DNA from: Buxus sempervirens | Taxonomy: Eukaryota > Streptophyta > Magnoliopsida > Buxales > Buxaceae | Reading direction: 5' to 3' | Assembly: GCA_947561395.2 (NCBI GenBank) | Contig: OX387186.1 | Coordinates: 39,265,220-39,329,219, forward strand | DNA length: 64,000 nt | Program-made: the position numbers and the translations under genes | Part shown: piece after piece, positions 22,964 through 62,121 of the stretch | Numbering within the stretch: position 1 is the first letter of the stretch | Layout: each line of letters starts with the position of its first letter | Notes under the pieces: generated by a model | What the model was told of the DNA's origin: nothing | What the model saw: the letters and a program-made list of their open reading frames with translations, nothing else | Database searches by the model: none

Positions 22964-23105
22964 GTATCCGACAGAAGTCATTGGATACAAGCAAGTGTTA
23001 TTATATTCGACAGAAGTCATCGGATACAAGCAAGTATTATTGTATCCGATGACATGTGTCGGATATAAAAATGTTCACTTGTATCCGACTTGAGTTGTCG
23101 GATAC
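22964..23105 (+). promoter_or_regulatory. array of four 8-9-8 inverted repeats, GTATCCGA type
   Basis: Units at 22964, 23003, 23042 and 23081, each 25 bp, have an exact period of 39 bp. The arms are GTATCCGA...TCGGATAC with single changes (TTGGATAC, ATATTCGA, TCGGATAT). Spacers are CAGAAGTCA twice, TGACATGTG and CTTGAGTTG. The array lies upstream of the LTR TATA box. It is the counterpart of the GTATCCGG arrays of element 2. Confidence 0.9.
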
Positions 23106-26997: not shown

Positions 26998-27139
26998 TTG
27001 ACCGACAACTCAGGTCGGTTAAACAGTATAACCTTCTTATCTGACAGATATCATCGGTTACAAAAGCTTATGTATGTATCTGATTAATTACATCGGATAA
27101 AATAAAGCATAGCTTTATCCAATCTGACATGTCGGATAC
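26998..27139 (+). promoter_or_regulatory. array of four 8-9-8 inverted repeats in the element 1 leader
   Basis: 25-bp units start at 26998, 27037, 27076 and 27115 (period exactly 39). Arms are partly decayed: TTGACCGA/TCGGTTAA, TTATCTGA/TCGGTTAC, GTATCTGA/TCGGATAA, TTATCCAA/TCGGATAC. The first unit is the counterpart of the element 2 unit at 57536: the 9-nt spacer is identical (CAACTCAGG, reverse CCTGAGTTG) while both arms differ in a matched way. Confidence 0.82.
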
Positions 27140-37823: not shown

Positions 37824-40114
37824 TGTGAGACATGGGAAAATCACCGGAATGATCATCCCTCTGTCAACACACGGGCTCAACGCAAAAATGGGAGAGTCGC
37901 TACCATTTATGATTTTGAGGTGAGAATGGACACCAAAGAGTTCAAAATAAGCAAAAAGTGAACAAATAAACATTCTAGGATAAAAATAATCCTACTTGAA
38001 AATCAAATCCAGAGATGGGTAAGGGGATTAGATTATGAACGGAAGAAGGTATTAGGCACCCCCATTCATCCACACGAAGTGGTTGCCAAGTGTATGTTCA
38101 TGCTAAAAAGAAAATAAGAAGCTTGCTAAAAATCATGAAAAAGCCTTGAAAAAGGAACAAGTGTATGATATATTCACATGAAGATCCAAATGGATTTTAG
38201 ATCTTCTCTTATGTCAATATCACTTCTGGAGTATTTCAAAAAATGGAAATCAAAGCTCAAGTTGCTCAAAACCAAGTTAAATCAAATCCGGAAAATTCGG
38301 TAAAAAGTATGCCATTTGCCTTGAAATCATTCAAATCCAATTCTAAATTGACCCAAACCAAATCCATTTGAAAGATTAGGGTAAATAAGAGTCTCATGCA
38401 AAATTTCACTTCATTCCGATGAAAAATCTAGGAGTTATGCTCCTTTGAAGTTGCTGCTGGGGATTTTTAAAAGTGGTAAGTGGGCAACTTTGGAAAATTG
38501 TCTAGAAAAATCCACTACATAAAAGTCCACGAAATTTGGTGTGATTGAAGTCTGTATGGCCATTTTTCCAGAGAAACTAGCCTCATACAAAAATCCCTTC
38601 GGATGTGCCTTGGGTGGTCTCCCGAATAGGCCCCGAAGATCACAGATTTACCCAGAAAAGTACAAATGAACAGTTCTGAGTAAATCGGCTACCAATAATT
38701 CAAATGGAATCCAAAAATTATGAAACCAACTGGATTTGAAAATAAACTCATAAAGTAGTACTCAGAAATAAAAATCACTCGAATCGGACTTAAAACGAAC
38801 ACATGGCGGTCCGTCGAAGTGACAAGTTCTGTATTTAAACCTGAACTGTCCACTTAACTTCGATAGAGAGGTGTCAAAAATCCGCTTGATAGAAATTCAT
38901 GAAATTTGGTGGACATAAACTAGACAGCCTCACCTTTCCCATGGTTCTAGAATCGCCCCAAAATTCATCCGGATGATGAAGTTATGGGCGTCCGAAGTAA
39001 GGGTACAGGTGCTGTCAAGCTAAGCCACTTTTGAAAAAAATCAAATCCGAAAATTGACAAAGTGTGTGAGATTCGTGTGAGATGAATCCAAAACCTTTGA
39101 AAAACATTTAAAAACACTCCAGAATTTTATTGAGGCCATTTATTGGAGATTTATCACAATGAATGTAGTAAATCCCCAAATGTGAGCCTATTCACCAAAA
39201 AGTGTAATATGTGTGCAAGAGTGAAAAACCAAGCAAGATCAATACAACCACATATCATGCATATAGATTCAACAAAATAGGTTCTAGCATAGCCTAGGGT
39301 TCCATTCCATTATCGTTTCCCTCTGTTCTCTCTCCCCGTTAAACACGGATCTTCGAAATAATCAAGGGTACTTTGATTATAGAACGGTTTTCAATCAATC
39401 AAAAAGGCCTTATGCTACATGGGTTCTAGCACTAGGGTCAATCCCCAGTCTCGTTTCTCCTAGATCTGCCTTCACGTTTTACGGCTAGGGGAGTCTTGAG
39501 ATACTTTGAGCCGGGGAAGGATTTCCACACATACAAACAAGGCTTTACACTACAGAAAGGTAGAAGAAGAGATCTAGATCTAGGAATGTAAAGACAGAAA
39601 ATAAAAAGAAAAGTTGAGGCTTACCTGAGTTCTGGAGGCGATTCCGCAGCGGTTTTCTTCTTCTCTTGGAGTTCTTCTTTGCGAGAATTCAAAACAAGAG
39701 TTGAGTGCCATTTGCTCAAGGAGGAGGCTCCTATTTATAGGCAAAGGCTAAGGTCATTGGTAGACACAACTTAATGTCTAGAACTCCCCCAACCTAAACC
39801 CTAAGGTTATTTCCACGATTTCCCCTCATTTAATGAGGGACATGATGGTAAAAGTGAAAAGCTCTCGGAAAACCCTAATTTTGAGCAAACTTAAGGTATC
39901 CGGTATGTCAGACCGGATAAAAAAGGGCCTTAAGGTATCCGGTACATGGTACCGGATACACTAAGGCTCACATGTATCCGGTATGAGTATCCGGATACAG
40001 GAAGTAGTACTTGTATCCGGATACAGGTAAAAGTTTATTTTCTTCAAATTCTGTGCTGGCTTTCCAGGAGATAATGATTTTTGATGATTATTTGTGCAAT
40101 TTGGGGTGTCTACA
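37824..40114 (-). repeat. element 2 3' LTR
   Basis: 2,291 bp. It is a near copy of 59078-61377 in the same orientation. A 13-bp deletion near 40020 has fused the arms of the fourth inverted repeat into GTATCCGGATAC, and a small indel lies near 38090. The TATA box equivalent is at 39732-39739. Confidence 0.96.
39896..40024 (-). promoter_or_regulatory. array of 8-9-8 inverted repeats, GTATCCGG type, 3' LTR
   Basis: 25-bp units start at 39896, 39935 and 39974, plus a collapsed 12-bp unit at 40013 (period 39). The second unit has 11-bp perfect arms, GTATCCGGTAC/GTACCGGATAC. Relative to LTR transcription (minus strand) the array is about 155 bp upstream of the TATA box. Confidence 0.93.
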
Positions 40115-40130
40115 ACTACCCCTCTTTGCG
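40115..40130 (-). other. polypurine tract of element 2
   Basis: On the minus strand, CGCAAAGAGGGGTAGT immediately precedes the TGTAGACACC start of the 3' LTR, the expected place for plus-strand priming. Confidence 0.75.
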
Positions 40131-40664: not shown

Positions 40665-40728
40665 GTATCCGGTATGTATATCCGGATAATCAAGGGCCTG
40701 CGGGTATCCGGCCTGAGTATCCGGATCC
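40665..40728 (+). promoter_or_regulatory. two 8-9-8 inverted repeats upstream of the PMD gene
   Basis: GTATCCGG-TATGTATAT-CCGGATAA starts at 40665 and GTATCCGG-CCTGAGTAT-CCGGATCC at 40704, again 39 bp apart. They sit just before the GC-richer segment that I take as the first, non-coding exon of the PMD gene. Confidence 0.88.
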
Positions 40729-42248: not shown

Positions 42249-45013
42249 ATGGCTAGGAGTCGTTCTCGAGTTAGAGAGGAGGCTGACCCAGCTGATCAGC
42301 CCTCCTCTTCGCGGGCTCGTACGGAGGCGAGTTCCAGCGCCACCGTGTCGGAGCCGCTAGATGTCTCCAGGGAGAGCTCTGCTGAGGTAGGCTTTCAAAA
42401 TTCTTTCTCTCTTCCCTTTTTTATTCTCCTTTCCCACACAACCTTCACACTTTCTCTTGAATTTTAGCCCGTGGTTGCACCGGCTCGGGGTCGAGGCAGA
42501 GGCAGAGGCAGAGTTCAGGATCAGGCCCCTGAGGGCGAGAGAGGCCGTGGCAGAGGCCGAGGCAGAGCCAGAGATACGGCTCAGGAGGGGGTTGCTGTGG
42601 CTCTGGCAGGGGTCTCTGAGGAGTTGAGGGCCTCTGTTCGGGATACAGAGCTCCTCCATGGCTTGGATAGCCACCCTTCCATGTGCATCAGGGCAGATGT
42701 GCCGCTTCCCTATCATTCCTCCCACTTACGAGGTAGCTGGGGCAGATTCAGTGAGTTAGCTCAGTCGCTTTCTCCGGCACTCAGGCGGGAGTTTGGGAGG
42801 TGCCACCTGGATCACTTCCTCAGCATTCCATCATTCAGAGCCGACCGTCCACTCATCTTTGCCATGATGGAGAGATATTTCCCAAAGACTCAGTCGTTCC
42901 ATCTGCCGGACGTGGAGCTGGGGATCCGCCCCTCGGATTTTGTGATGATCACCGGTATCCCATTGACTGGGCGGACCATTGTCTTGGAGCGGCCTTCTGT
43001 GGAGGATATCGGACTTCTCTTGGGATATCAGGCCCTACCACCTACTGCTTGGGATGGAAGGAGTGGCCGGCTCTCCATTAGCTGGCTGCGGGAGAGTCTG
43101 GCTCGTCATTTTGAGAGGAGGCACGAGACCGTCTCTGTGGAGGATGCAGCCTTTGCACCAATCTTCCGACATGTTTTTCTGTTGATGCTTGGGAGCTGCT
43201 TTTTTCCGGAGGATACGACTGGCGTCAGTCCGCTCTTTTTGGACGCCTTGAGAGATTTCTATCAGACCCGCCAGCTAGCATGGGGTCGGCTGATCTATGG
43301 GACCATCCTGGCCGGGCTGTGCCGAGCTGTTCGAGGCTTAGCATCTCCGAGAGGTGATGGAGTCAGCAGCCGATTTTTCTGGCAGATTCTACAGGTATTG
43401 CATTCATCTGTCTGGTTTAATTCCATAGGCTTTATCTTTTCTTGACTGATTTTTCTTTTGCTAGGTGTTCATGTACACCTATATGACCTTCTTCCGCCCC
43501 TCCCCGGTTCCTGAGGTTGCGGATTTCCCTGTGGCCCTGCGATGGTCGGCCTAGGTCCGGGATGCTGATAGGAGCCAGCCTCGCACTGCCCGGGTGCACT
43601 TAGACCGTGCCCGCCGATCTGATGTAAGTCCTCTATTTTTTTCTTTTATTTCCTTTCCTGTATCTTGACTGTACCTGACAGTTTCCTTTTTTGCAGCTCC
43701 TCCTGTCCCGATTTGATGACGTGGATGTTGGAGTGGCTCGTGAGATGGCGGTACAGGACGCCTTCGATAGAGATCGACGACGTTAGCCCTACCAGTGCTT
43801 CCTCGGGAGGCTTGGTAGGGTGATGTACTTAGGAGAGCGCTTGTACTTCCAGCACACCAGCGCACTTCGCATCCCCGTCCCTCCTCCTCCTGTGGGTCCC
43901 GACACACTCCTCCCGGGCTTTGATGTTGATCAGTTCGATCACTTCCTGGATGCGGAGGGGCTTACAGTAGCTGGAGATTATGACGAGTGGTTCCAGAGGG
44001 TGTCTATTGGATGCTTGATGGATCGACCCACTCGTGCCGGGGTGACTGAGATTGGCGGGATCCGTATCCGGATTCATGAGGACACAGTAAGTCTTGTACT
44101 CTCTATATTTTCATCTTTTCTTCCCTTATGTATTTCTGACCCTGCTTCTGTTCTTGTTGGCAGGTACACGAGCTGAATACCATCCGGGACCGGTTTGAGA
44201 GTCAGCGGGCCGCGATCGATGATATGATTGCTGAGCACGATGCGGTCGTGGCCCAGCGGGATGCCCGGATCAGGGAGCTGGAGGCCTTGGTTGCTGAGCT
44301 CCAGGCTAGACAGGTATCTGGCCTTCTTATATTTTCATTTCTTTTATTTTCTTGTTTCTGCTATTCTGATATGCTTGTTTGACTTGTGCAGGGCCCGATC
44401 CATGATCAGGGTGCCTTTTTTGAGCATGATTTCCTCATTCCTGACCCATCTCCTGCTTGGGCCTCTGATCCTGTGGACGTCCCAGCTGCTGATCCAGGTG
44501 ATGCTCCACCTACTGATGCCCCAGTTGCTCCTGCGGATGCCCCGGCTGTTCCAGTGATGGTTCATGAGCCGGAGGAGGTCCCTGCTGCTGACCCAGTGGA
44601 TCCGGATCCTCCAGTGCCTGCTGTAGATATCCCTGGTATGCTTTCTTTAATTTTTCCTCTTTGGTTTATTCTGATGCTTTCATTTCTGATTTTTTTTCCC
44701 TGTTGATCCAGATGTTTCTGCTCCTGGCCATTCTTCTGCTGCCGGGTCTTCTGGATCTGCGGGAGTGGAGGCTACTGTAGCTGTGGGCCCGGTCGAGCCG
44801 GTTGCTGCGGAGCCAGAGGCTTCTTCTGATTCTGTCCCTGTTCCTTCCCCTGATACATCGGACTACTGCATCGAATACCAGCTTCAGTCCTTCATAGGAC
44901 GGAGACCACGCTACATGGCGGAGCGTCTACTGTCCTACTATAGGCGCCGATCATCCCGGGGGAGAGGTCGTAGAGGAGGACGAGGCAGAGGTCGCGTGGA
45001 TGATCCTGCATAG
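42249..45013 (+). pseudogene. PMD (plant mobile domain) gene, antisense in element 2, two nonsense codons
   Basis: Seven coding exons with GT-AG introns of 70-81 bp: 42249-42386, 42468-43394, 43465-43623, 43697-44086, 44164-44313, 44392-44635, 44712-45013 (769 codons). The product has an Arg/Gly-rich N-terminal tract, then a PMD (aminotransferase-like plant mobile domain; FHLPDVELGIRPSDFVMITG in exon 2), a coiled-coil exon 5, an acidic Pro/Ala/Asp-rich exon 6 and an RGG-like tail. PMD occurs in plant MAIN/MAIL1 silencing factors and in transposons; its molecular role here is unknown. In-frame TAG codons occur at 43552-43554 and 43784-43786; the element 1 copy has Leu and Gln there. The start follows a splice-acceptor-like TGTAG. 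Without readthrough it would give only the N-terminal PMD half, about 382 residues. Confidence 0.85.
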
Positions 45014-45229: not shown

Positions 45230-45371
45230 GTATCCGGTCTGACATACCGGATACATTGATTGGTCTTTGTATCCAGTATGTTATACCGGATACTCATGGC
45301 ATCCTTTGTATCCGGTACACTTAACCGGATATTAATAAAACCTTTTATATCCGGTCTGAGTTACCGGATAC
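45230..45371 (+). promoter_or_regulatory. array of four 8-9-8 inverted repeats upstream of the DUF7745-like gene
   Basis: 25-bp units start at 45230, 45269, 45308 and 45347, exactly 39 bp apart. Arms are GTATCCGG/CCGGATAC with single variants (GTATCCAG, CCGGATAT, ATATCCGG). Spacers are TCTGACATA, TATGTTATA, TACACTTAA and TCTGAGTTA. The array ends 12 bp before TATAAAT (45384). Confidence 0.93.
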
Positions 45372-45500: not shown

Positions 45501-47209
45501 ATGGAATCCGGATCATCTTCTGCCCCGTTGTTGTCTGTCCACACTGCTTCCCCTGCAAAACAACCTTTTAGATCAAAACCCCCAAATCTCACTAGGTACA
45601 ACCCTGTGGATTCCTTTTACACAAGGTGGGTTAACTCTATGACCCTAGATGAGGAGAGGAGATGGGGTACTACCAATCTAGGCCATACCCTGCTTATTCC
45701 CAAGGTTCCCTTCAGGTGGGAGATTATAGAGGCCATGATTGGTCATTGGGTTCCTGATCTCAACTTGTTTCGTTTTGGGACCCATGAGATGACCCCAACC
45801 ATTGAGGAGGTGGAAACCATCTTGGGCTTGAGGTTTGATGAGAAGGTGGTGAATCCACTTCTTAGGCCCAGTTACAAGAAGGAAACTTCTACTTTCTTAG
45901 GCATAGGGAAGAAGGACTTGGGGGATTCTGACACCCTTTTGACCCTATCTAAGGCCTTTTTGACTGAGAAGCTTTTGAGGGGGGAAGATAAGGAGGCCCG
46001 GTTCAATGCCTTGACCTTGATCGTGGTCAACCAGTTACTTTTCCCTCGGGAGGATGACGAGGTGGACTTGGCCTTGATCTCAGTGATATGCCAGGTTCGG
46101 GAGAGGGAGAGGTTGGCCCCTATGATTTTAGCTGGGATATATCAGGCCTTAACCGACTGCTACAATAGGAAGTCGAAACGCTTCCTAGCATGTGCCCAGA
46201 TCCTGCAGGTAAAAAAAATTTATTTATTTATTTATTTTTTTTTCTTGCTTTTTGGCTTTCTTTTTGCCTTTTTTTTATTTTTTTTTATTTTTTTTATACA
46301 ATGTGCTGACATATCTCTCTTCCTTTGCAGCTTTGGTTACTTGATCATTTGAGCCAGATTGAAGAGATCAATCGACACTTCTTCCCGAGTCTAAAAGTCC
46401 CATTGTTGATGAGCAACAGGGGGTGCCCCGATATTCCAGGGGGCAAACAGGGCTGGTTCATTTTCTTGGGCTCACTTCAGGAGGACCAGGTGAGATGGCC
46501 TGGCACTTATCAGCCCAACGCAGCGACCGTGATTAGCTTCCGTGACCGCAACTTTTTGATCCTAGCGGGCCTGAAGCATGCAGTGTTGTATCTTCCTCTG
46601 CAGGTCCTTCGTCAGTTCCGTGCGACCCAGGGGATTATCATCCCATGTGGATATGAGGATCGTCTTGGGCCTCTTTCTATGAAGCTGAATGCCTGGTTGA
46701 TGAAGGAGTGGTCCTATGTCCGCTTCATGCATGGTCCAGTCTTCTCGGAAGCTCATGTGAAGGATTATCTCTTCTGGATCAAGGAACAGATACAGACTCA
46801 GGCCCCGGTACCCGAAGATCCTCCTGTAGTCTTGGCTCCCACCTATGAGGACATTCTAGAGTCTGAGCGGGCTTCTCATAAGCGGCTTCAGCAGATATGG
46901 GTACGGGAGGCCCAGGAGCTCAGGATACAGGGCACTTATCTGGAGAGGCAGCTTGAGGAGCAGATCTCACGCCGTATTGCCATGGAAGAGAAGCTGGAGG
47001 AGCAGAGGCAGGCCCGTCGCTTCGAGGTCCGTATGATCCGGCAGAAGTACCAGGATACTTTGGCCAACCTTAGGAGTATGCGGATTAAGCAGGTCCTTTC
47101 AGATGAGGTCATTTCCTTCTTGAGTGATCCCGCTGCAGAGGGGGCTTCAGGAGTCATTGCAGCTCAGGCAGCTCGGATTCGGGAGCTTGAGGAGCGGCTA
47201 GGAGACTAG
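45501..47209 (+). CDS. DUF7745-like protein gene, antisense in element 2, intact
   Basis: Two exons, 45501-46208 and 46331-47209, joined by a T-rich 122-bp intron (CTGCAG|GTAAAA ... TTTGCAG|CTTTGG), give about 528 residues with no stop. I chose ATG 45501 (MESGSSSAPLL) because the TATA box at 45384 puts transcription start near 45415 and no ATG precedes it. The N-terminal part (residues about 40-240, with LTRYNPVDSFYTRWVNS and THEMTPTIEEVETILGLRF) and the middle (SLQEDQVRWPGTYQPN; RQFRATQG) resemble the plant DUF7745 family, itself PMD-like. The last 130 residues are a Glu/Arg/Gln-rich coiled coil. Function is not known for the family. It shares its promoter element with the LTR and PMD gene, so co-regulation is likely. 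Confidence 0.8.
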
Positions 47210-48151: not shown

Positions 48152-51100
48152 TCAAGGGAAATACCTTTTTACCGCATCAGAGTTAACGGGCTCAGGAAAA
48201 TCTGACCCATCCATTTCTGCTAAGATGAGTGCACCCCCTGACAGGACTTTCTTGACGACATATGGGCCTTCCCAATTGGGCTTGAACGAACCACGAGGAT
48301 CTTCCAAAAATGGTAAGATTTTCTTTAGCACTAAGTTTCTTTCTTGGAAAGTTCTGGGCCTCACTTTCTTATTGTAAGCCCGGGCCATTCTCTTCTGGTA
48401 CAACTGTCCATGGCAAAGCGCTTTCAACCGCTTTTCTTCTATCAGGTTAAGTTGATCATGTCTCGACTGGACCCATTCAGCTTCTTCTAGTTCTGCTTCC
48501 ATGAGCACTCGGAGTGAGGGGATCTCTACTTCCACGGGCAAGACTGCTTCCATCCCATAGACTAGGGAGTACGGGGTTGCCCCAGTTGAAGTCCGGATCG
48601 AGGTTCTGTATGCATGCAGAGCAAGTGGCAGCATTTCATGCCAATCCTTGTAGCTCACTACCATCTTCTGAATGATTTTCTTTATGTTCTTGTTTGCTGC
48701 TTCCACTGCCCCATTCATCTTTGGCCTGTACGGAGCTGACTTATGATGGGTGATCTGAAACTGCTCACACATTTTCTTCATGTCCTTGTTCTTAATATTT
48801 GAAGCATTGTCTGATACTATGGCACTTGGCAGTCCATAGCGACAAATAATGTTGTGCTTCAAAAATTTGATAACATGGTTGCTTGTGATATTTGCATATG
48901 ATGCTGCTTCTACCCATTTGGTGAAGTAATCAATCGCCACCAAGATGAATCTGTGCCTGTTCGATGCCTTAGGGGAGATCATGCCAATGACATCTATGCC
49001 CCACATAGAGAAGGGCCAGGGTGATGTCATGTTGTGCAGCTCACCTGGGGGTGCATGCTTATTATCTGCATATATCTGACATTGGTGGCACCTCCTGACA
49101 TGTACACAGCAATCATGCTCCATAGTCGTCCAGTAGTATCCCAGCCTCAGGATCTTCTTAGCCAGCATGTGCCCACTTATATGGGGCCCACAGACTCCTC
49201 CATGTACCGTCTCGATTAACCTTTCCGATTCAGCCTTGGCTACGCATCTTAGCAGAATGTCGTTATGTGACCTCTTGTACACATGTCCACCACTTAGCAG
49301 AAACTGACCAGCCAATCTCTGTATTGTCCTCTTCTCAGTAGCAGTGGCATTCTCTGGCAGACTCCGATTGTTCAAGAAATTTTTGATATCTTGAAACCAC
49401 GGAGCTTCTTCTTCCGGTGCTCCCCCTAGAACAAGATAGTAAGCCGGTTCATCTCTGACTTCAATTTCCAGTGGTCTGATGTCTACTCCTTCTGGTATGC
49501 TGACCATTGAAGCCAATGTTGCTAGAGCATCCGCAAATTGATTCTTGGCCCTTGGCATATAGTTGAAGGAAATTCGAGTGAAATTTGTGCTTATTTCCTC
49601 CAAATACTGGTGATAGGGGATCAATTTGTGATCCTTGGTTTTCCACTCACCAGTTGTTTGGAAGATGATAAGACTCGAATCCCCGTATACGTCAAGTTCC
49701 TCTACTCCATGATCCATGGCTGCTTGCAATCCAATTATGCATGCCTCATATTCTGCTATGTTATTGGTGCACTGGAATCTCAGCTTTACTGTGATAGGGA
49801 TGTGTGAACCATCTGGTTTAACCAAGACTGCCCCTATTCCATTACCATTCATATTGGCGGCCCCATCAAAGAACATCTGCCAAGAACTCTCATTTTCCTC
49901 CTCTTCAGTGTACAGAATTGCCTCATCTGGAAAGTTGGTCTCCAAGGGTTGATATTCTGGCAGAGGATGTGCAGCCAGGTGATCAGCTATGGCTTGACCC
50001 TTGATTGCCTTCTGGGTGATGTATGTGAGGTCAAACTCGGACAGTAGCAGTTGCCACTTTGCTGTCCTGCCAGTCAATGCTGGTTTCTCAAATAAATATT
50101 TCAGCGGGTCCATCCGGGATATCAATAGTGTGGAGTGACTAAGGAAATAATGCCTTAGCCTCTGAGTGGCCCATACTAGAACACAGCAAGTCTTTTCCAA
50201 TGGTGAGTATTTGGCTTCATATTCCGTGAATTTTTTACTCAGATAGTAAATTGCCCTTTTTTTTCTACCCGTCTCATCATGCTGCCCCAAGACACATCCC
50301 ATCGATGTTTCCAACACTGACAAGTACAGGATCAGTGGTCTTCCTGGAGTTGGTGGCACTAGCACAGGTGGGTTCAGCAAATACCTCTTTATTGTGTCAA
50401 ATGCCTGCTGGCAGTCCTCATTCCAGACCGTAGGGTTATCTTTCCTAAGAAGTTTGAAAATTGGTTCACAGATAGCAGTGAGCTGTGCTATGAATCGGCT
50501 TATGTATTGAATCCTTCCAAGAAAACCCCTGACCTCCTTCTCAGTTCTAGGTGCTGGCATTTCAATTATGGCCTTGGCTTTAGCCGGGTCAATTTCAATT
50601 CCTTTTCGGCTCACTATAAACCCCAGTAACTTCCCTGATGTAGCCCCAAAGATGCATTTAGCCGGGTTAAGCCGTAGACTGTACTTCCTGAGCCGATCAA
50701 ACACTTTCTTCAGATTGATCAAGTGGTCCTCCTCTTTGCATGATTTGGCAATCATATCATCCACGTAGACCTCCATCTCCTTATGGATCATGTCATGAAA
50801 TAGTGCAGTCATGGCCCGCTGGTATGTTGCCCCAGCGTTTTTAAGCCCAAATGGCATGACTGTGTAGTGGAACGTGCCCCAAGGTGTGATAAATGCTGTT
50901 TTCTCTTGATCCTCCTTAGCCATCTTGATTTGATTATATCCTGAGAAACCATCCATGAAGGAAAACAGGCTATGTACCGCAGTATTATCGACCAGAATGT
51001 CGATGTGTGGAAGCGGAAAATCGTCCTTTGGGCTTGCCCTGTTCAAGTCTCTATAGTCCACGCACATTCGGACCTTCCCGTCCTTCTTTGGTACCGGCAC

Positions 51101-51739
51101 TATGTTTGCGAGCCACTCCGGGTACGTAGAGACTGCCAAAAATCCAGCTTGGAACTGTTTGACCACTTCATCCTTGACCTTCAGAGTCCACTCAGGTTTC
51201 AATCTTCTCAGCTTCTGCTTAATCGGCTTAACCCCTGGTAAAATTGGCAACTTATGCACCACCATGTCCGTGTCCAACCCCGGCATGTCCCGATATGACC
51301 AAGCGAACACATCTTTGTAGTCTGCCAAGAATTGTGACATTTCATTTTTCTGCACATTAGACAAGCATGACCCGATTTTCACAATTTTTGGGTCATCTTC
51401 AGTCCCAAGGTTTATGGATATGGTCTCTTCAATATTAGGTTGGACCCCCTTTTCATGACGTTCCAATTGGTATTCAATTTCTTTTGGAACGTCTTCTTCT
51501 TCGACCTCGGTCTCTTCTTCGACCCCCATGAGATCAAAGTCGAGCTCGAAGTCGAAGTCATATTCAACCTGGTCCAATTCGGTCTGATTATATGGTTCAT
51601 AAGTGGTTTGGACCTTTTTGAAAAATTTAAATTTTCTAGAAAAAATAGAAAAATCTTTTTGGGTTTTTTGTGGGCCTTCTAAACATAATTCCCCTGAAGA
51701 CGAAGGCCCATTAGAACCTTCAGGGAAATGGCATTCCAC
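48152..51739 (-). CDS. pol: element 2 pol: RT, RNase H, second RNase H, integrase
   Basis: An open frame of 1195 codons sits in the -1 frame relative to gag-pro and overlaps its stop by one base. Its first codon is GTG, so it is probably expressed by frameshifting or splicing, not by its own start. Domains by residue: RT about 190-380 with YVDD at 325-328; RNase H about 465-590; a second, archaeal-type RNase H about 615-745 (FFDGA, AEYEA, YGDSS, NQFADALA); integrase with an HHCC-type zinc region (CHQCQ) from about 845 and catalytic D (GIDVIG), D (VSDNAS) and E (GAVEAANKN) about 915-1012; no chromodomain. All catalytic residues are present, so it may be active. The dual RNase H is typical of the Tat lineage. 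Confidence 0.95.
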   Translation of the reverse strand: MECHFPEGSNGPSSSGELCLEGPQKTQKDFSIFSRKFKFFKKVQTTYEPYNQTELDQVEYDFDFELDFDLMGVEEETEVEEEDVPKEIEYQLERHEKGVQPNIEETISINLGTEDDPKIVKIGSCLSNVQKNEMSQFLADYKDVFAWSYRDMPGLDTDMVVHKLPILPGVKPIKQKLRRLKPEWTLKVKDEVVKQFQAGFLAVSTYPEWLANIVPVPKKDGKVRMCVDYRDLNRASPKDDFPLPHIDILVDNTAVHSLFSFMDGFSGYNQIKMAKEDQEKTAFITPWGTFHYTVMPFGLKNAGATYQRAMTALFHDMIHKEMEVYVDDMIAKSCKEEDHLINLKKVFDRLRKYSLRLNPAKCIFGATSGKLLGFIVSRKGIEIDPAKAKAIIEMPAPRTEKEVRGFLGRIQYISRFIAQLTAICEPIFKLLRKDNPTVWNEDCQQAFDTIKRYLLNPPVLVPPTPGRPLILYLSVLETSMGCVLGQHDETGRKKRAIYYLSKKFTEYEAKYSPLEKTCCVLVWATQRLRHYFLSHSTLLISRMDPLKYLFEKPALTGRTAKWQLLLSEFDLTYITQKAIKGQAIADHLAAHPLPEYQPLETNFPDEAILYTEEEENESSWQMFFDGAANMNGNGIGAVLVKPDGSHIPITVKLRFQCTNNIAEYEACIIGLQAAMDHGVEELDVYGDSSLIIFQTTGEWKTKDHKLIPYHQYLEEISTNFTRISFNYMPRAKNQFADALATLASMVSIPEGVDIRPLEIEVRDEPAYYLVLGGAPEEEAPWFQDIKNFLNNRSLPENATATEKRTIQRLAGQFLLSGGHVYKRSHNDILLRCVAKAESERLIETVHGGVCGPHISGHMLAKKILRLGYYWTTMEHDCCVHVRRCHQCQIYADNKHAPPGELHNMTSPWPFSMWGIDVIGMISPKASNRHRFILVAIDYFTKWVEAASYANITSNHVIKFLKHNIICRYGLPSAIVSDNASNIKNKDMKKMCEQFQITHHKSAPYRPKMNGAVEAANKNIKKIIQKMVVSYKDWHEMLPLALHAYRTSIRTSTGATPYSLVYGMEAVLPVEVEIPSLRVLMEAELEEAEWVQSRHDQLNLIEEKRLKALCHGQLYQKRMARAYNKKVRPRTFQERNLVLKKILPFLEDPRGSFKPNWEGPYVVKKVLSGGALILAEMDGSDFPEPVNSDAVKRYFP

Positions 51740-54700
51740 TATTGGAGTTTTTTTTTGGAAGTCGCGTCAGTTTGCCACACAGACGCTGCTTCAAAGGTAA
51801 GGGGAGTTTCCTCCCAATTGTTCATTACAAAATTTTTGGGAGTAGGGGAAATAGGGAAAGCCTGCTCCTCAAGCCCAGCATCCGATGCCATCATCACCGG
51901 GTGGGTACTGCCCTTTTCTGCTACGGGGCCCAGTTCAGAAATGACCTTGTCTGGAACCTTTACTGCGGCCCAGTCAATAAACGGCAGTTCCATGTCTGCC
52001 CCTGTCTTTTCGCCTTCAGTCATGGCGAAGAAGGCTCTAACATCTTCAGAATAGTCTGACTGCTGCTCAGGCTGTGGTCCAGGCCCATCCACTGCTCCCA
52101 GTATTGGAGATGGGTTATAGGGTTGTAGGGCCGAAACAAAAGGCTTTTGAAATGGGTTAATGTTTCGGTATGGAGGCTTGGACTGGTCCATGGGAGGAGT
52201 AATTTGGATTATGTAGGAGGGTTTTGGAAAGTTCACCCTCAGATGCGGGAGTTTTCCTTTGCTTCTGCTCTCCCCTTCTTCATGCTTCATTCTCCTCCAG
52301 CCTCTGGGCTTGAAGCCCAACCCTACCTTGGGGATCAGTTTCTTAGCCGTGATTGGCTCCACCATCCCCTGCAGATTGATCCCCAGGCCTTTCCCTGGGT
52401 GAAAGTGGTATTTCTCCATCACTTTCTTGACCATCTTTTCTGCAGTGGTCCCTTTTTCATTCTTTTTCTCACACCCCCCAGGTATGTAATTGACCGCCTC
52501 AAATTGGAATGAGTGGAATGCAATCTTGTCGACAGTTAGGTCCACATTGATCAAGGGTACATCAGGTGACACGATGGGCAGCACCAAGTTTTCGGCTAGG
52601 ACTGTTATCACCCTTTGCCCTCTTATGTACTTCACTCTTTGGTGGAGCGTGGATGGTATTGCCCTAGCTGAATGTATCCACGGCCTCCCTAGGAGCAGAT
52701 TGAAGGCTGCGGGTATATCCATCACCTCAAATGTGATGTTAAAGATATTCGGCCCAATTGTGACCGGCAGTTCAATCTCCCCTAGGGAATGGGTCTTGGA
52801 GCTATCAAAAGCCCTAACTATCCGCCCATTTTGTTTGATCCTTGACTGGTCCAGATCCAGCTTGGTAAAAGTGATTAACGAGCAAACGTTTAATGCCGAC
52901 CCGTTGTCAATTAAAACCCGTGCAATCATGCAACCATTACAAAGCACTGTGATGTGCAAAGGGTCCACATGATAACACCCACCTGGGCTGATCTCACCCT
53001 CTGAGAAACTTATCACATTATGTGACAAGATTTGACCAACCATTTTACCAAGCTGGTCCGGATCAATGGTCTGGGATACGTGTGCACTTTGTAGCACCCT
53101 TAACAATGCATCCCTGTGCTTTTCAGAATTCAGCAAAAGGCCCAGTATTGAAATCTGGGCCGGGACCTTGTTCAGCTGATCCACAAGATTAAATTCACTC
53201 TTTTTTATTATTTTTATGAGGTCGGCTGCCTCATTTTCTGCACCCTGGGGGGTGTCTTCTCCCACTTTATTTTTTCCCTTCTGTTTTCTTTTTTCATTTT
53301 CTTTTTCTATTTTTTCTTTTTCTGCTTCTGTCTCCTTTTCTTTCTCTTCACCCCCTGCACATCTCCCCGACCTCATCATGAGGTTCACCTCCTCCTGGTT
53401 CTGGTCCTTGACCACTGGAACTGTAGCCGTGATTCCCTCGCTGTAATTCCATGGTACAGCGGCCTCAGAATAGGCTAGTTTGGGGATTTTAACCACTAAT
53501 GGCTGGAGTTTGGACCGGGATGCATGGGCCGGTTTAGGGATAGTATGGGCTGGCTGCACATTTACAACCAAGGGTTGAAGTTTGGAATTTGTGGGGACAG
53601 AAGAAGTGATGGAAGCAGTGGTGGGGTCAAGGCTGATGACCAGTGGAGCCTTAGACGGCTTGGATGGTGAGCAAATGGATGGACTGCAATTGAAGACCAA
53701 TGGGGGCCTTGCAGTATTTATCTGGGCCATGAGTGAAGAGACCCGGTTTAGAGAGGAACTTATGTCCTCAGCAGCAAGATTATTATTTTTTTGGGAGACC
53801 ATGTTGATCTCCTCTTCTTCCTCTTCTGGGAAAAATCGGACCTGGACTGTAGTCCCCACAGGTGCTATAAGCTGAGATGGGTCAAAAGCCCTTCTCGTGG
53901 TGGATATGGCAGTGATGGAGTTGGATGGGCCTGCCCCATTGTGGTAAGGCAGAGGGTTCTGCCCAATATCATTTCCCGACGGGGCCAGTGCAGCAGTGTT
54001 GAACACCAAGGCCTTCTGGTCCAACAAATCCTGGACTGCATGCTTCAATACCCAGCAGTTATCAGTAGAATGCCCCGGTGCACCCATGTGGAAATCACAG
54101 GTGACCGATGTGTCAAAATTTCTTCCCCTGGTGGCATTCGGGTTGGGCTCTTTCAGAGTCAAGTATTCACCCTTTAACAGGGTTGGCAATAGTTGGGAAA
54201 GAGATATGGGTAGAGGGGTAAGAACCCGGTTCTTTCTGTTGGCTAACCAGGCCTCTCTTTCCTCCCTGGTAAAGGTCCTCCTTGGGTTTGCTGGTACAGA
54301 TGGAGTGAAATTGACATTCTGCGGGCTCTGATAAGACTCCTGGGCCTGTTGAGCCTGCTGGGGTTGCTGGGGTACAGAGATGTTGACGTGCAGTGGCTTC
54401 TTGGCTGGAGGAGCCTGGACCAGGTTCACCTCTCCTTCTTTTCGGGCCCCTGTCTTCTTGAACCCAGTTCCCTTCTTTTGGGCCATGGAGGCCGAGGAAT
54501 CAGACTGCCCAGTCAGAGTAGAGTAGTCTATCAGCCTTCCTGACCTGACCCCTTCCTCGATCCGGTCCGCCACCTGCACTAGGGCTGCAAAGTTGGTGGT
54601 GATCTGACCCACCAGATGGTTGTAAAAGGGCTGCCCCAGTGTGCCCATAAATGTGGAGATCATCTCCGGCTCTTGCATAGGTGGCCTGACCTGGGAGGCG

Positions 54701-55449
54701 GCCTCTCTCCATCTCTTGGCGTACTGCCGTACCGGTTCATCTTTCCCCTTGGTCATCCTCATCATGTCGTACCGGTCCGGCACGATCTCAGAGTTGAACT
54801 TATATTGGTCTAAGAAGGCGTCGGCTAGGTCCTTCCACCTCCTGATCCTTCCATGGTCCACTGTAGCGAACCACCGAAGGGCTGACCCGGTCAGACTCCT
54901 CTGGAAGAGCTGGATCAGTATGCCATCATCCTGGCCAAATTGGCATAGGGCCCCGCAGTATAATTTGAGATGGCTCAATGGGCAGCCCGTGCCATCAAAT
55001 TTATCGAAGTCTGGGCACCTGAACTTAGCCGGTAGACAGACGTTCGGGTACATGCACAGGTCTTCGAAGGTGGTGCCTGCATGGCTGCCTCCCCCCTTCA
55101 CTTCCTTCAGCTCTGCCTGGATCCTCTCTATCCTGAGCAGCATTTTCTTTTCCATCTCATCTCGGGCCTTTTCTTTTTCCAGCTCTTTCTCAGACTCCGC
55201 TGTATTTTCCCTGATCAGAATGGGTTCAGGGACTGGTTCAGAAATGGGCTCAGGCATGGGCTGAGCCGGAGGCGGAATGTAGGCCTGAGGTGGTGGTGCC
55301 TGATGGGAAGTAGATGCCTGGTTCTGGGCTTGGGCCTGAGCCGCCAGTAGGTCCCCCAGCATCTTGACCAGACCGGCCACTTGCTCCTGCAGTTGAGTAA
55401 AGTCCTGAGCAGGGACAGTAGCTTGGGCTTGGTTCTCTTCAGTATTCAT
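51739..55449 (-). CDS. gag: element 2 gag-protease polyprotein
   Basis: The frame is open from ATG at 55449 (MNTEENQAQATVP) for 1236 codons; it extends 25 codons further upstream without an ATG. By residue: a Pro/Gln-rich N-terminus, a Lys/Glu-rich helix, a Retrotrans_gag domain about 135-300 (CLPAKFRCPDFDKFDG onward), a degenerate zinc knuckle CDFHMGAPGHSTDNC near 450, a basic/acidic repeat region, an aspartic protease near 845-950 (IDNGSALNV; LLLGRPWIH), a G-patch-like segment near 1015 (GKGLGINLQG...GLGFKPRGW) and an unassigned acidic tail. It ends KKKLQ-TAG just after an A9 run. Structural proteins plus maturation protease; it appears intact. Confidence 0.94.
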   Translation of the reverse strand: MNTEENQAQATVPAQDFTQLQEQVAGLVKMLGDLLAAQAQAQNQASTSHQAPPPQAYIPPPAQPMPEPISEPVPEPILIRENTAESEKELEKEKARDEMEKKMLLRIERIQAELKEVKGGGSHAGTTFEDLCMYPNVCLPAKFRCPDFDKFDGTGCPLSHLKLYCGALCQFGQDDGILIQLFQRSLTGSALRWFATVDHGRIRRWKDLADAFLDQYKFNSEIVPDRYDMMRMTKGKDEPVRQYAKRWREAASQVRPPMQEPEMISTFMGTLGQPFYNHLVGQITTNFAALVQVADRIEEGVRSGRLIDYSTLTGQSDSSASMAQKKGTGFKKTGARKEGEVNLVQAPPAKKPLHVNISVPQQPQQAQQAQESYQSPQNVNFTPSVPANPRRTFTREEREAWLANRKNRVLTPLPISLSQLLPTLLKGEYLTLKEPNPNATRGRNFDTSVTCDFHMGAPGHSTDNCWVLKHAVQDLLDQKALVFNTAALAPSGNDIGQNPLPYHNGAGPSNSITAISTTRRAFDPSQLIAPVGTTVQVRFFPEEEEEEINMVSQKNNNLAAEDISSSLNRVSSLMAQINTARPPLVFNCSPSICSPSKPSKAPLVISLDPTTASITSSVPTNSKLQPLVVNVQPAHTIPKPAHASRSKLQPLVVKIPKLAYSEAAVPWNYSEGITATVPVVKDQNQEEVNLMMRSGRCAGGEEKEKETEAEKEKIEKENEKRKQKGKNKVGEDTPQGAENEAADLIKIIKKSEFNLVDQLNKVPAQISILGLLLNSEKHRDALLRVLQSAHVSQTIDPDQLGKMVGQILSHNVISFSEGEISPGGCYHVDPLHITVLCNGCMIARVLIDNGSALNVCSLITFTKLDLDQSRIKQNGRIVRAFDSSKTHSLGEIELPVTIGPNIFNITFEVMDIPAAFNLLLGRPWIHSARAIPSTLHQRVKYIRGQRVITVLAENLVLPIVSPDVPLINVDLTVDKIAFHSFQFEAVNYIPGGCEKKNEKGTTAEKMVKKVMEKYHFHPGKGLGINLQGMVEPITAKKLIPKVGLGFKPRGWRRMKHEEGESRSKGKLPHLRVNFPKPSYIIQITPPMDQSKPPYRNINPFQKPFVSALQPYNPSPILGAVDGPGPQPEQQSDYSEDVRAFFAMTEGEKTGADMELPFIDWAAVKVPDKVISELGPVAEKGSTHPVMMASDAGLEEQAFPISPTPKNFVMNNWEETPLTFEAASVWQTDATSKKKLQ
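51748..51756 (-). promoter_or_regulatory. A9 run, candidate -1 frameshift site between gag-pro and pol
   Basis: In the sense of element 2 the zero frame reads TCC AAA AAA AAA CTC CAA TAG. A one-base slip back on A-AAA-AAA enters the pol frame, which is open from there. Element 1 keeps the same A9 and stop (32176-32193). Splicing, described for Ogre, is the alternative. Confidence 0.6.
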
Positions 55450-55705
55450 TGTTCTTGCTTTGGATCTGGTCACGGGAGCAATGATTGCAAAAAAGTGTAA
55501 ATGTACCTGAGTAAGGAAAAGCAAAGAAACATGTCAGCTCCCATTTAATCTGAGTCACACACCTATAAATGTAGATAAGTGGGTTAGGTGAACACAAGTC
55601 CGGATTTATTTGTTTTTTTTTTCTATATTTTTCCATTTTTTGTTTTGTTTTTTTTTGATTGTTGGAATATTTTAGGGCTTCCAAAGGTCCCAAAGAATGA
55701 GAAAT

Positions 55706-56680
55706 GTCTAAAATTCAGAGGCTTTTAGACGGCCCAAAGGATACGTGTCTATAATTCAGAGGCTTATAGACGGCCCAAAAAAGTTGTGTCTAAAATTCAG
55801 AGGCTTTTAGATGGCCCAAAGGATTGTGTCTATAATTCAGAGGCTTATAGACGACCCAAAAAAGTTGTGTCTAAAATTCAGAGGCTTTTAGATGGCCCAA
55901 AAAGGTTGTGTCTAAAATTCAAAAGCTTTTAGATGGCCCAAAGGATATATGTCTATAATTCAGAGGCTTATAGACGGCCCAGAGGATATGTGTCTAAAAT
56001 TCAGAGGCTTTTAGATGGCCCAAAAAGGTTGTGTCTAAAATTCAGAGGCTTTTATATGGCCCAAAGGATATATGTCTATAATTCAGAGGCTTATAGACGG
56101 CCCAGAGGATATGTGTCTATAATTCAGAGGCTTATAGACGGCTCAAAATAGGTTGATGTTTGAAATTCAGAGGCTTTCAAATGGCCCAAAAAGGTTGTGT
56201 CTAAAATTCAGAGGCTTTTAGACGGCCCAAAAAGGTTGATGTTTGAAATTCAGAGGCTTTCAAATGGCCCAAAAAGGTTGTGTCTAAAATTCAGAGGCTT
56301 TTAGACGGCCCAAAGGTTATGTGTCTAAAATTCAGAGGCTTTTAGATGGCCCAAAGGATATATGTCTATAATTCAGAGACTTATAGATGGCCCAAAAAGG
56401 TTTGTCTAAAATTCAGAGGCTTATAGACGGCCCAAAGGATATATGTCTATAATTCAGAGGCTTATAGATGGCCCAAAGGATATATGTCTATAATTCAGAG
56501 GCTTATAGATGGCCCAAAAAGGTTTGTCTAAAATTCAGAGGCTTATAGACGGCCCAGAGATATGTGTCTAAAATTCAGAGGCTTTTAGACGGCCAAAAAA
56601 GTTGTGTCTATAATTCAGAGGCTTATAGATGGCCCAGAGATATGTGTCTAAAATTCAGAGGCTTTTAGACGGCCCAAAAA
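55706..56680 (-). repeat. 24-copy tandem array of 25-bp hairpins, period about 40 bp
   Basis: Each unit is an 8-bp arm, the near-constant spacer TTCAGAGGC and the matching 8-bp arm; linkers are 'ggcccaaaaaggtt' or 'ggcccaaaggatat'. Arm pairs come in three types: GTCTAAAA/TTTTAGAC, GTCTATAA/TTATAGAC and GTTTGAAA/TTTCAAAT. In about 21 of 24 units both arms are of the same type (allowing a terminal T for C). Confidence 0.93.
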
Positions 56681-57418: not shown

Positions 57419-57560
57419 GTATCCGGTATAATATACCGGATAAGAATATGCCTTATTGTATCCGGTCACCCTAACCGGATACACGCATATGCCTTTGTAT
57501 CCGGAAATATATACCGGATATGAATAGAGTTGTTATTAACCGGCCTGAGTTGCCGGTTAT
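57419..57560 (-). promoter_or_regulatory. array of four 8-9-8 inverted repeats, element 2 leader
   Basis: 25-bp units start at 57419, 57458, 57497 and 57536, exactly 39 bp apart. Three have GTATCCGG/CCGGATA arms; the fourth is TTAACCGG-CCTGAGTTG-CCGGTTAT. Orthologous to 26998-27139 in element 1. Confidence 0.92.
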
Positions 57561-59075: not shown

Positions 59076-60981
59076 GTTGTGAGACATGGGAAAATCACCG
59101 GAATGATCATCCCTCCGTCAACACACGGGCTCAACGCAAAAATGGGAGAGTCGCCACCATTCATGATTTTGAGGTGAGAATGGACACCAAAGAGTTCAAA
59201 ATAAGCAAAAAGTGAACAAATAAACATTCTAGGATAAAAATAATCCTACTTGAAAATCAAATCCAGAGATGGGTAAGGGGATTAGATTATGAACGGGAGA
59301 AGGTGTTAGGCACCCCCATTCATCCACACGAAGTGGTTGCCAAGTGTACATGCTAAAAAGAAAATAAGAAGCTTGCTAAAAATCATGAAAAAGCCTTGAA
59401 AAAGGAACAAGTGTATGATATATTCACATGAAGATCCAAATGGATTTTAGATCTTCTCTTATGTCAATATCACTTCTGGAGTATTTCAAAAAATGGAAAT
59501 CAAAGCTCAAGTTGCTCAAAACCAAGTTAAATCAAATCCGGAAAATTCGGTAAAAAGTATGCCATTTGCCTTGAAATCATTCAAATCCAATTCTAAATTG
59601 ACCCAAACCAAATCCATTTGAAAGATTAGGGTAAATAAGAGTCTTATGCAAAATTTCACTTCATTCCGATGAAAAATCTAGGAGTTATGCTCCTTTGAAG
59701 TTGCTGCTGGGGATTTTTAAAAGTGGTAAGTGGGCAACTTTGGAAAATTGTCTAGAAATATCCACTACATAAAAGTCCACGAAATTTGGTGTGATTGAAG
59801 TTTGTATAGCCATCTTTCCAGAGAAACTAGCCTCATACAAAAATCCCTTCGGATGTGCCTTGGGTGGTCTCCCGAACAGGCCCCGAAGATCACAGATTTA
59901 CCCAGAAAAGTACAAATGAACAGTTCTGAGTAAATCGGATACCAATAATTCAAATGGAATTCAAAAATTATGAAACCAACTGGATTTGAAAATAGACGCA
60001 TAAAGGAGTACTCAGAAATAAAAATCACTCGAATCGGACTTAAAACGAACACATGGCGGTCCGTCGAAGTGACAAGTTCTGTATTTGAACCTGAACTGTC
60101 CACTTAACTTCGACATGGAGGTGTCAAAAATCCGCTTGATAGAAATTCATGAAATTTGGTGGACATAAACTAGACAGCCTCACCTTTCCCATGGTTCTAG
60201 AATTGCCCCAAAATTCATCCAGATGATGAAGTTATGGGCGTCCGAAGTAAGGGTACAGGTGCTGTCAAGCTAAGCCACTTTTGAAGAAAATCAAATCCGA
60301 AAATTGACAAAGTGTGTGAGATTCGTGTGAGATGAATCCAAAACCTTTGAAAAACATTTAAAAACACTCCAGAATTTTATTGAGGCCATTTATTGGAGAT
60401 TTATCACAATGAATGTAGTAAATCCCCAAATGTGAGCCTATTCACCAAAAAGTGTAATATGTGTGCAAGAGTGAAAAACCAAGCAAGATCAATACAACCA
60501 CATATAATGCATATAGATTCAACAAAATAGGTTCTAGCATAGCCTAGGGTTCCATTCCATTATCGTTTCCCTCTGTTCTCTCTCCCCGTTAAACACGGAT
60601 CTTCGAAATAATCAAGGGTACTTTGATTATAGAACGGTTTTCAATCAATCAAAAAGGCCTTATGCTACATGGGTTCTAGCACTAGGGTCAATCCCCAGTC
60701 TCGTTTCTCCTAGATCCGCCTTCACGTTTTACGGCTAGGGGAGTCTTGAGATACTTTGAGCCGGGGAAGGATTTCCACACATACAAACAAGGCTTTACAC
60801 TACAGAAAGGTAGAAGAAGAGATCTAGATCTAGGAATGTAAAGACAGAAAATAAAAAGAAAAGTTGAGGCTTACCTGAGTTCTGGAGGCGATTCCGCAGC
60901 GGTTTTCTTCTTCTCTTGGAGTTCTTCTTTGCAAGAATTCAAAACAAGAGTTGAGTGCCATTTGCTCAAGGAGGAGGCTCC

Positions 60982-60989
60982 TATTTATA
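60982..60989 (-). promoter_or_regulatory. element 2 LTR TATA box
   Basis: TATAAATA on the minus strand in 'gcctataaataggagcctcc', 156 bp downstream of the inverted-repeat array. Confidence 0.75.
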
Positions 60990-61145
60990 GGCAAAGGCTA
61001 AGGTCATTGGTAGACACAACTTAATGTCTAGAACTCCCCCAACCTAAACCCTAAGGTTATTTCCGCGATTTCCCCTCATTTAATGAGGGACATGATGGTA
61101 AAAGTGAAAAGCTCTCGGAAAACCCTAATTTTGAGCAAACTTAAG

Positions 61146-61287
61146 GTATCCGGTATGTCAGACCGGATAAAAAAGGGCCTTAAGGTATCCGGTACATGGT
61201 ACCGGATACACTAAGGCTCACATGTATCCGGTATGAGTATCCGGATACAGGAAGTAGTACTTGTATCCGGATTGAGTATCCGGATAC
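61146..61287 (-). promoter_or_regulatory. array of four 8-9-8 inverted repeats, element 2 5' LTR
   Basis: 25-bp units start at 61146, 61185, 61224 and 61263 with exact 39-bp spacing. All four are full length here, unlike in the 3' LTR. Confidence 0.93.
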
Positions 61288-61377
61288 AGGTAAAAGTTTA
61301 TTTTCTTCAAATTCTGTGCTGGCTTTCCAGGAGATAATGATTTTTGATGATTATTTGTGCAATTTGGGGTGTCTACA

Positions 61378-61382
61378 ATGCC
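61378..61382. other. target-site duplication of element 2, right copy
   Basis: ATGCC directly after the element end; the partner is at 37819-37823. Confidence 0.95.
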
Positions 61383-61853
61383 CCGTACATCCCCGCCAAG
61401 ATCATAGGGGCCAATCTCTCCTGTTCCCTAACTTGGCAAATGACTGAGATGAAGGCCAAGTCAACTTCATCATCATCTCGTGGGAAAAGTAGTTGATTGA
61501 CCACTATCAGGGTCAAGGCATTAAACCTAGCCTCTTTGTTTTCCCCCCTCATGAGCCTCTCAGTCAGAAAAGACTTGGATAAGGTCAAAAGTGTGTCAGA
61601 ATCCCCTATACCCAATCATGGCCTCAATAATTTCCCACTTAAATGGGATGGAAGGGATGAGCAAGATGTGACCTAGGTGAATAGAATCCCATTTGATCCC
61701 TTCATCAAGGGTCATAGAGTTAACCTACCTAGTGTAGAATGAATCTACTGGGTTGTACCTAGTGAAATTAGGGGGTTTTGCTCTAAAAGGTTGTTTTGCA
61801 GGGGAGGCTGCGTTAACAGATAATAATGGGGCAGAAGATGGTCTGGAAGCCAT
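61378..61853 (-). pseudogene. DUF7745-like antisense gene of element 1, 5' piece
   Basis: The minus-strand frame starts ATG 61853 (MASRPSSAPLLSV), equivalent to 45501 in element 2. Defects: Trp after FYTR is a TAG (61724-61722), and about 57 codons between EAMIG and GDSDTLL are deleted (near 61615). The remaining part, with FNALTLIVVNQLLFP, continues to the element 2 insertion point; the gene resumes at 37823. TATAAAAA (61970-61963) and an inverted-repeat array lie upstream. Confidence 0.88.
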
Positions 61854-61982: not shown

Positions 61983-62121
61983 GTATCAGACATATCAGAT
62001 CGGATACAAGAGGTTCTGTTTATATCCGACGCAAAATATCGGATACAAGATATTTTTCTTGTATCCGATAAATTTCATCAGATACAAAAAAATTACTCAT
62101 CCGATCTGATATATCGAATAC
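61983..62121 (-). promoter_or_regulatory. array of four 8-9-8 inverted repeats, element 1, between the antisense genes
   Basis: 25-bp units start at 61983, 62022, 62061 and 62097 (spacing 39, 39, 36). Arms are GTATCAGA/TCGGATAC, ATATCCGA/TCGGATAC, GTATCCGA/TCAGATAC and TCATCCGA/TCGAATAC. The CCGA/TCGG core matches the element 1 LTR, not element 2. Confidence 0.9.

Follow-up and report, generated by a model that had tools for sequence, protein, structure and literature searches.

Phased palindrome arrays common to the LTR, leader and antisense genes of Ogre/Tat-type retrotransposons in Buxus sempervirens: candidate operators of a putative element-encoded regulator

In a 64,000-nucleotide stretch of Buxus sempervirens DNA (hereafter, the window), evenly spaced palindromes accompany the genes of two retrotransposons on both strands, and the question raised by this locus is what might read them. 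The sequence-only reading had counted 30 inverted-repeat units in eight arrays, each unit 25 bp long (8-9-8) and repeated with a period of 39 bp. This observation is confirmed: 28 units were regular, one lay at 36 bp (62097), and one was collapsed (40013). In the array at 45230-45371, the four units start at 45230, 45269, 45308 and 45347, exactly as the period requires. The unit at 62097 is the fourth of the element 1 DUF7745 array and stands 36 bp from its neighbour, the other three being regular (61983-62085). The collapsed unit of the 3' LTR has lost 13 bp between its two CCGG motifs, and its counterpart in the 5' LTR (61263) is intact. Coordinates of the arrays, LTRs and genes are listed in Table 1.

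The window contains two nested LTR retrotransposons of the Ogre/Tat type, both with PMD and DUF7745 genes in antisense orientation; these genes occupy the interval from pol to the 3' LTR. Element 2 is on the minus strand; element 1 is on the plus strand, starting near 22.87 kb and continuing from 61386. Element 2 is inserted within the DUF7745 gene of element 1 (37820-37824 / 61379-61386) and is flanked by a 5-bp target duplication, ATGCC; one family member thus broke a candidate regulator gene of another. The intron of the element 2 DUF7745 gene, recognised by reading the sequence, is of the GT-AG type. Tandem repeats of 76 bp were present in the leaders of both elements, and a 41-bp type was reported in element 2 alone (27463-28302, 56705-57101, 55705-56678). 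To the left of element 1, at 19153-20188, lies a 256-bp tandem repeat in four copies that are 95% alike.

Table 1. Palindrome arrays, LTRs and genes of the two nested elements (window coordinates)
Feature	Position	Strand	Remarks
Element 2 DUF7745 promoter array	45230..45371	+	4 units; TATAAA begins 12 bp on
PMD upstream array, element 2	40665..40728	+	2 units
Element 2 3' LTR array	39896..40037	-	3 units (39896-39998) and collapsed unit at 40013
Element 2 5' LTR array	61146..61287	-	4 units; ~90 bp from LTR start; TATAAA 156 bp downstream
Element 2 leader array	57419..57560	-	4 units
Element 1 LTR array	22964..23105	+	4 units, inner base A
Element 1 leader array	26998..27139	+	4 units, inner base A
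Element 1 DUF7745 promoter array	61983..62121	-	Units 61983, 62022, 62061, 62097; TATAAA after 12 bp
Element 2 3' LTR	37824..40115	-	98.1% identity to 59078-61378; true ends a few bases beyond blast limits
Element 2 5' LTR	59078..61378	-	Slightly longer than blast limit; PBS-like TGGCGACTCTGCTGGGGAC next
Element 1 DUF7745 exon 1	61386..61853	-	Interrupted by element 2; remainder in 36760-37824
Element 2 DUF7745 exon 1	45501..46208	+	Pfam PF24924 and PF10536 on predicted two-exon protein; antisense to gag-pol
Element 2 DUF7745 exon 2	46331..47206	+	Probable C-terminal coiled coil
Element 2 PMD gene	42468..45010	+	PF10536 1.1e-12; PMD in 42468-43442; antisense to gag-pol; probably several exons, start and exon borders provisional
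Element 2 gag (G-patch) and pol (RT-RH-aRH-INT)	48152..55533	-	Domain matches

The sequence TGGCGACTCTGCTGGGGAC, a putative primer binding site for tRNA-Arg, comes next after the 5' LTR both in element 2 and in a copy of the gag-only family Z (in stretch L023). A tRNA-Arg primer binding site is given for Ogre/Tat elements in the available part of PMC9289625. According to the accessible portion of PMC6317226, the Ogre/Tat lineage of Ty3-gypsy has an extra RNase H (aRH) between RH and INT, and an extra ORF with a PMD domain is known in Ogre. The corresponding domain order (RVT_1, RT_RNaseH, RVT_3, rve) was found in 48152-51766 on the minus strand, and the PMD-type extra ORF is present, PF10536 matching 42468-43445 and both PF24924 and PF10536 matching the DUF7745 gene. 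Reported frequencies are 57% of Ogre for the PMD-type ORF and 23% of Retand for Transposase_28; the latter had no match in the nine proteins of one scan, nor in the three of another.

Chance was ruled out as the origin of the arrays. At a score of at least 12/16, the window contained 28 matches, 26 of them inside arrays and two isolated (30840 and 47034), while first-order Markov simulations (n = 20, 64 kb each) yielded 0-2 such sites. The whole-genome motif scan proposed in the sequence-only reading gave the same result: in the 676.5-Mb genome, where repeat counts are lower bounds, the exact G-type unit GTATCCGGN9CCGGATAC was found in at least 20,444 places, compared with about 0.05 expected from base composition (40% GC), and the reversed pattern used as control in none. 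The A-type unit GTATCCGAN9TCGGATAC occurred in at least 6,516 places. For units with mixed arms, the counts were at least 1,722 (forward) and at least 1,710 (reverse), about 12,000 being expected with independent arms.

The period of 39 bp was also evident on a larger scale. Adjacent G-type arms 14 bp apart were found at least 11,447 times genome-wide. In 306.5 kb of retrieved sequence, TATCCG-N11-CGGATA occurred 140 times and the same pair one period further 96 times, with no other distance exceeding 5. In reverse order, CGGATA-N16-TATCCG was found 97 times and the N55 spacing 55 times; the N29 and N68 spacings (15 and 9 times) we take to be left arms followed by ATA. CCGN11CGG pairs were separated by 39 bp in 96 cases and by 78 bp in 54, and by any of ten other tested periods in at most 2.

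Recurrence was followed in 20 fetched stretches of 10 kb (L005-L024); these and all other loci used belong to one contig (C1). As these were selected because exact units had been listed there, the frequency of LTR arrays among them is not unbiased. The layout was nevertheless recurrent, with four units in the LTR, two at PMD, three or four at DUF7745 and four in the leader. Five further elements resembling element 2 were picked out from the listing of exact units, where their LTR arrays were separated by 20.1-20.7 kb. The window served to predict where their leader, PMD and DUF7745 arrays should lie, and an array was present in each of these places; the five PMD sites and four of the leader sites were newly seen.

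The distance of 12 bp from the end of the DUF7745 array to TATAAA, noted at first in the two elements of the window, was found at 10 of 10 promoters. The accompanying claim that the arrays mark every promoter holds for DUF7745 and proved too strong otherwise. In the LTR, the array precedes TATAAA by 152-170 bp (20 of 21 LTRs), not by 12 bp, and no TATA[AT]A was present in the 400 bp to the left or right of the leader and PMD arrays. In the retrieved sequence, an array followed 17 of 19 LTR starts of the element 1 or element 2 type. The two starts without one (L011:2122 and L045:2264) are the only ones that were neither chosen for their arrays nor inside the window, so the share with arrays in the family at large may differ. 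At L011:2122, the same LTR start and TATA region were observed with two CCGTA-N7-TACGG palindromes 56 bp apart in place of the array, perhaps a different code in the same position. No array was detected at the expected PMD and DUF7745 places of the L024 element in stretches L042 and L043, the latter of which contains part of a Z copy; the stretch chosen for the leader of the L018 element (L044) contained gag and no array.

Conservation within the unit was unequal. In a half-site profile of 192 units, positions 2-7 (TATCCG) carried 1.4-1.9 bits, a value that is partly due to ascertainment since the units were found by that core; positions 8, 9 and the flanks are unaffected. Position 8 was A or G (0.48/0.52), position 9 was C or T (0.93), and outside the unit preferences were seen for T in position -1 (0.73) and for Y in position -5 (0.91). 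The arms had been described as constant and the spacers as variable. Constancy applies to positions 2-7 only, since element 1 has A and element 2 has G as the innermost base. The spacer is constrained as well: its outermost letters are mostly Y...R, so that the half-site is closer to GTATCCGRY.

Pairwise comparison of six elements of the element 2 type (three used for the LTR, six for the leader, four for DUF7745 and five for PMD) revealed 54 differences in 1,856 arm positions (2.9%), 101 in 1,044 spacer positions (9.7%) and 124 in 1,148 linker positions (10.8%). L027 and L031 were dropped at DUF7745 (one 38-bp step) and L038 at PMD (too near its end). Equal conservation of arms and spacers, which would have spoken against a binding site, was therefore not observed in this small set of elements. 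At the LTR site alone, the flanks were as alike as the arms (5/360, 1.4%, versus 2/192, 1.0%); flank differences were computed without gaps and are mostly inflated.

Three array sites of elements 1 and 2 are orthologous and align with few gaps or none. Inside arrays, one gap event accompanied 158 mismatches between these elements, whereas outside them 48 accompanied 879 (P about 0.002); this contrast stems from the LTR and the leader, as the DUF7745 region had one gap inside and one outside.

The innermost arm base proved to be a property of the whole element. All 24 half-sites of element 1 carried A, and all 28 of element 2 carried G. In 12 orthologous unit pairs, identity was retained at 148/168 positions of the arms (1-7) and at 51/108 of the spacers, while position 8 differed in 24 of 24 cases, the A always belonging to element 1 and the G to element 2. 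In the first leader unit, the spacer caactcagg is identical in both elements, yet both arms are switched. Twelve elements had arrays at more than one site; in these, the proportion of A agreed from site to site, with a mean difference of 0.051 compared with 0.428 after shuffling (0/10,000); for the seven divergent elements alone, the values were 0.060 and 0.452 (0/10,000). These shuffle statistics ignore phylogeny, and the test leaves out the fourth DUF7745 unit of element 1, which the half-site count (24/24) includes. Elements of mixed state (L009, L010/L011 and L006) were mixed at each examined site, L010 and L011 being treated as one element on the basis of near-identical LTR arrays.

Three possible sources of this pattern were considered and rejected. 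Strict coupling of the two inner bases within a unit was not significant, as arms matched in 39 of 62 units of 18 mixed arrays, compared with 36.2 expected (sd 2.6); the genome-wide homotypy is therefore a property of the array or element, and A and G seem to be tolerated together in some families. CHG deamination as the source of A arms was rejected because position 5, the matching CHG cytosine, remained C in 22 of 24 element 1 half-sites while position 8 was A in 24 of 24. Finally, spacers of the same element were not clearly more alike across sites (0.653) than spacers of different elements (0.606; P 0.10), so homogenisation is not an obvious cause of the shared inner base.

Arrays were also observed in family Z, a gag-only, non-autonomous Ogre-type family with LTRs of about 3.7 kb, in some of its copies. 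Of 13 Z starts examined, seven showed an array; two of these (L012 and L020:5734) were LTR arrays of the element 1 or element 2 type within the same span, leaving five starts with arrays of their own. The possibility, raised against the original proposal, of arrays being widespread outside this family is thus partly realised, through some copies of Z. Z loci include L023 4745-8421 and L046 from 7342, and one array class abuts TATAAA. In the arrays of the two LTRs of a single Z element (L023 7229 and L046 9825), the first and last spacers are reverse-complementary (caactcagg ... cctgagttg), which makes the whole array inverted-symmetric; in other arrays, the first and last spacers are similar without exact complementarity. 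The element-wide inner base with diverging spacers, the rarity of indels inside arrays and the arrays in gag-only Z are new here.

Taken from sequence features, namely the dyads, the period, the recurrence, the inner base and selection, the earlier proposal of a shared cis code for one trans-factor appears well supported by inference. In this account a protein dimer would bind each 25-bp unit, whose two-fold symmetry gives a half-site of about GTATCCGRY, and four such dimers would line up at 39-bp intervals, probably in contact or cooperating. Since one type of candidate operator lies upstream of the TATA box for gag-pol in the LTR, in the leader and at the antisense PMD and DUF7745 genes, one factor could act on both strands at once. 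That factor would most likely be the element's own, with the DUF7745 protein as first candidate and the PMD protein as second, and may activate or un-silence its own promoters in trans, by analogy with VANC for VANDAL. We place about even confidence in this account as a whole, in which the arrays would serve a single dimeric DNA-binding factor as operators, the factor being probably a product of the element that activates or un-silences in trans. Against it stand the chance-level agreement of the two arms in mixed arrays, the absence of arrays at the two unselected LTR starts and the absence of a nearby TATA box at leader and PMD arrays. Protein binding, the identity of the protein, the cooperation of dimers and the direction of the effect (activation, anti-silencing or repression) are what we infer from these patterns.

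The candidate genes themselves were compared by dN/dS. Values were 0.05-0.18 for the DUF7745 and PMD genes, 0.08-0.21 for gag and 0.04-0.09 for pol; they are rough, as many dS values were near or above 1, and 20 of the 32 segments contained at least one stop. The DUF7745 and PMD genes are under purifying selection, in the range of gag and near that of pol. The two families overlap in Pfam. A C-terminal coiled coil of the DUF7745 protein is probable, judging from the sequence and from a long helix in the weak model of a relative, P0001, and would suit a dimer. P0001 was the one DUF7745 relative found in the protein database, and its AF2 model is poor (mean pLDDT 45). PDB sequences contained no relative of DUF7745, and viral contigs scanned by pattern and by protein contained no relatives.

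The foremost alternative, which we regard as unlikely, is that the arrays bind a host transcription factor, either a dimer or two paralogues preferring A and G, recruited by several LTR families. It is established that plant LTRs recruit host factors, and the TATA-proximal placement of arrays fits such a factor, as does their occurrence in two LTR families, one of them gag-only; the arrays of Z are explained equally well. However, a single host factor fails to explain the element-wide A or G state inside one genome. Arrays are also located in the leader and beside the antisense genes, in the same places in all five element-2-like elements examined, which points to self-wiring and is more natural for a regulator encoded by the element.

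A role in chromatin or silencing, in which palindromic CG/CHG-rich arrays attract or exclude methylation, siRNA or a nucleosome, is improbable. It would agree with the CG and CHG cytosines of the CCGG/CCGA cores, with the length of a four-unit array (142 bp, about nucleosome-sized) and with the overlap of VANC targets and RdDM targets described in the accessible part of PMC10398659. However, it predicts neither dyad arms, nor the exact 39-bp period, nor the 12 bp to TATA, and the conserved C at position 5 speaks against deamination as the source of the A state.

That the arrays are functionless young tandem repeats, which slippage and recombination among the element's own regions have multiplied and homogenised, is quite improbable. 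A local duplication was indeed observed, units 22964 and 23003 having the same spacer and nearly the same linker, and same-element spacers are slightly more alike across sites, but that excess is not significant. Moreover, arms are kept while spacers and linkers diverge, spacing is held against indels at the LTR and leader, and the orthologous sites of elements 1 and 2 have remained nearly free of gaps. Very improbable, finally, are RNA hairpins acting in packaging, processing or translation of genomic RNA: on reading the sequence, a unit can form an 8-bp stem with a 9-nt loop, and the leader, PMD and DUF7745-region arrays lie within genomic RNA, but the DUF7745 arrays stop before the TATA box and so lie outside that gene's transcript, and sense-RNA hairpins were rejected on the direction of mixed units, which in element sense were 15 A-left versus 6 G-left, opposite to G-U tolerance (rows not independent).

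An operator read by a factor of the element itself has partial parallels in known systems. Retroviral trans-activators (foamy virus Tas, and HTLV Tax with its repeats) act on repeated sites in the LTR and an internal promoter; the likeness lies in the element-encoded factor and repeated sites, and the sites and proteins are unrelated to those described here. The analogy drawn in the sequence-only reading was with the VANC anti-silencing proteins, which are described in parts of PMC5735166 and PMC10398659 as recognising clustered short motifs in non-coding regions of Arabidopsis VANDAL (MULE) elements. The arrays reported here are likewise clustered, sequence-specific motifs in the non-coding regions of a TE family. 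According to the same partial sources, motif types vary by VANDAL family, and the unrelated TE AT9TSD1 has VANC6 motifs, as gag-only Z has arrays here. The analogy is sound in its logic but not in site architecture: the VANC21 motif, as given in the available part of PMC5735166, reads YAGTATTAY, a non-palindromic nine-base word whose copies all face the same way, whereas the sites here are 25-bp dyads with an exact period, their dyad symmetry and conserved arms being those expected in general of a TE-encoded dimeric regulator. VANDAL elements are also MULE DNA transposons with a DUF1985 protein, in contrast to the LTR retrotransposons of the window, and DUF1985 had no match at E up to 10 in the three proteins scanned. 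A defining trait of VANC is that the protein binds its motif and strips DNA methylation in trans.

Retand and Grande offer a parallel in gene arrangement. In the accessible portions of PMC11963269 and PMC7264820, antisense accessory genes, proposed to be regulatory, lie between pol and the 3' LTR as they do here; Grande gene23 has its own promoter, and Retand TRP28 is predicted to bind DNA. The proteins differ, being TRP28 or others there and PMD and DUF7745 here, and those portions describe no operator common to the LTR and antisense promoters. The Arabidopsis PMD proteins MAIN and MAIL1 are linked, in the available part of PMC9899485, to the 'DOWN' promoter motif CATGCAGTTT and to TE silencing. 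The likeness lies in the PMD superfamily and in its link to a promoter motif; CATGCAGTTT is unrelated to GTATCCGR, and direct binding is not known for MAIN/MAIL1 either, as far as that part of the source extends. A palindrome array common to the LTR and antisense promoters was not reported in the accessible parts of the literature searched, which was mostly open-access. Literature found on 39-bp palindrome arrays concerned oyster satellites, and for the bare 8-mer words, no title among the matches listed concerned a plant TE promoter.

In its broader form, which we put forward tentatively and with somewhat less than even confidence, the proposal is that a regulator encoded by these LTR elements themselves, DUF7745 or PMD, reads the phased palindrome code of the LTR, leader and both antisense genes, that regulator and code shift in specificity jointly, element by element inside one genome, and that Z parasitises the system. 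The accessible text of PMC6317226 asks whether extra and antisense genes have any function, and that of PMC11963269 and PMC7264820 calls it unknown. A phased operator tying the antisense genes to the LTR offers a cheap test of whether such genes are self-recognising regulators. If true, these elements would provide natural protein-site pairs in LTR elements for specificity coevolution and for its theft by non-autonomous elements.
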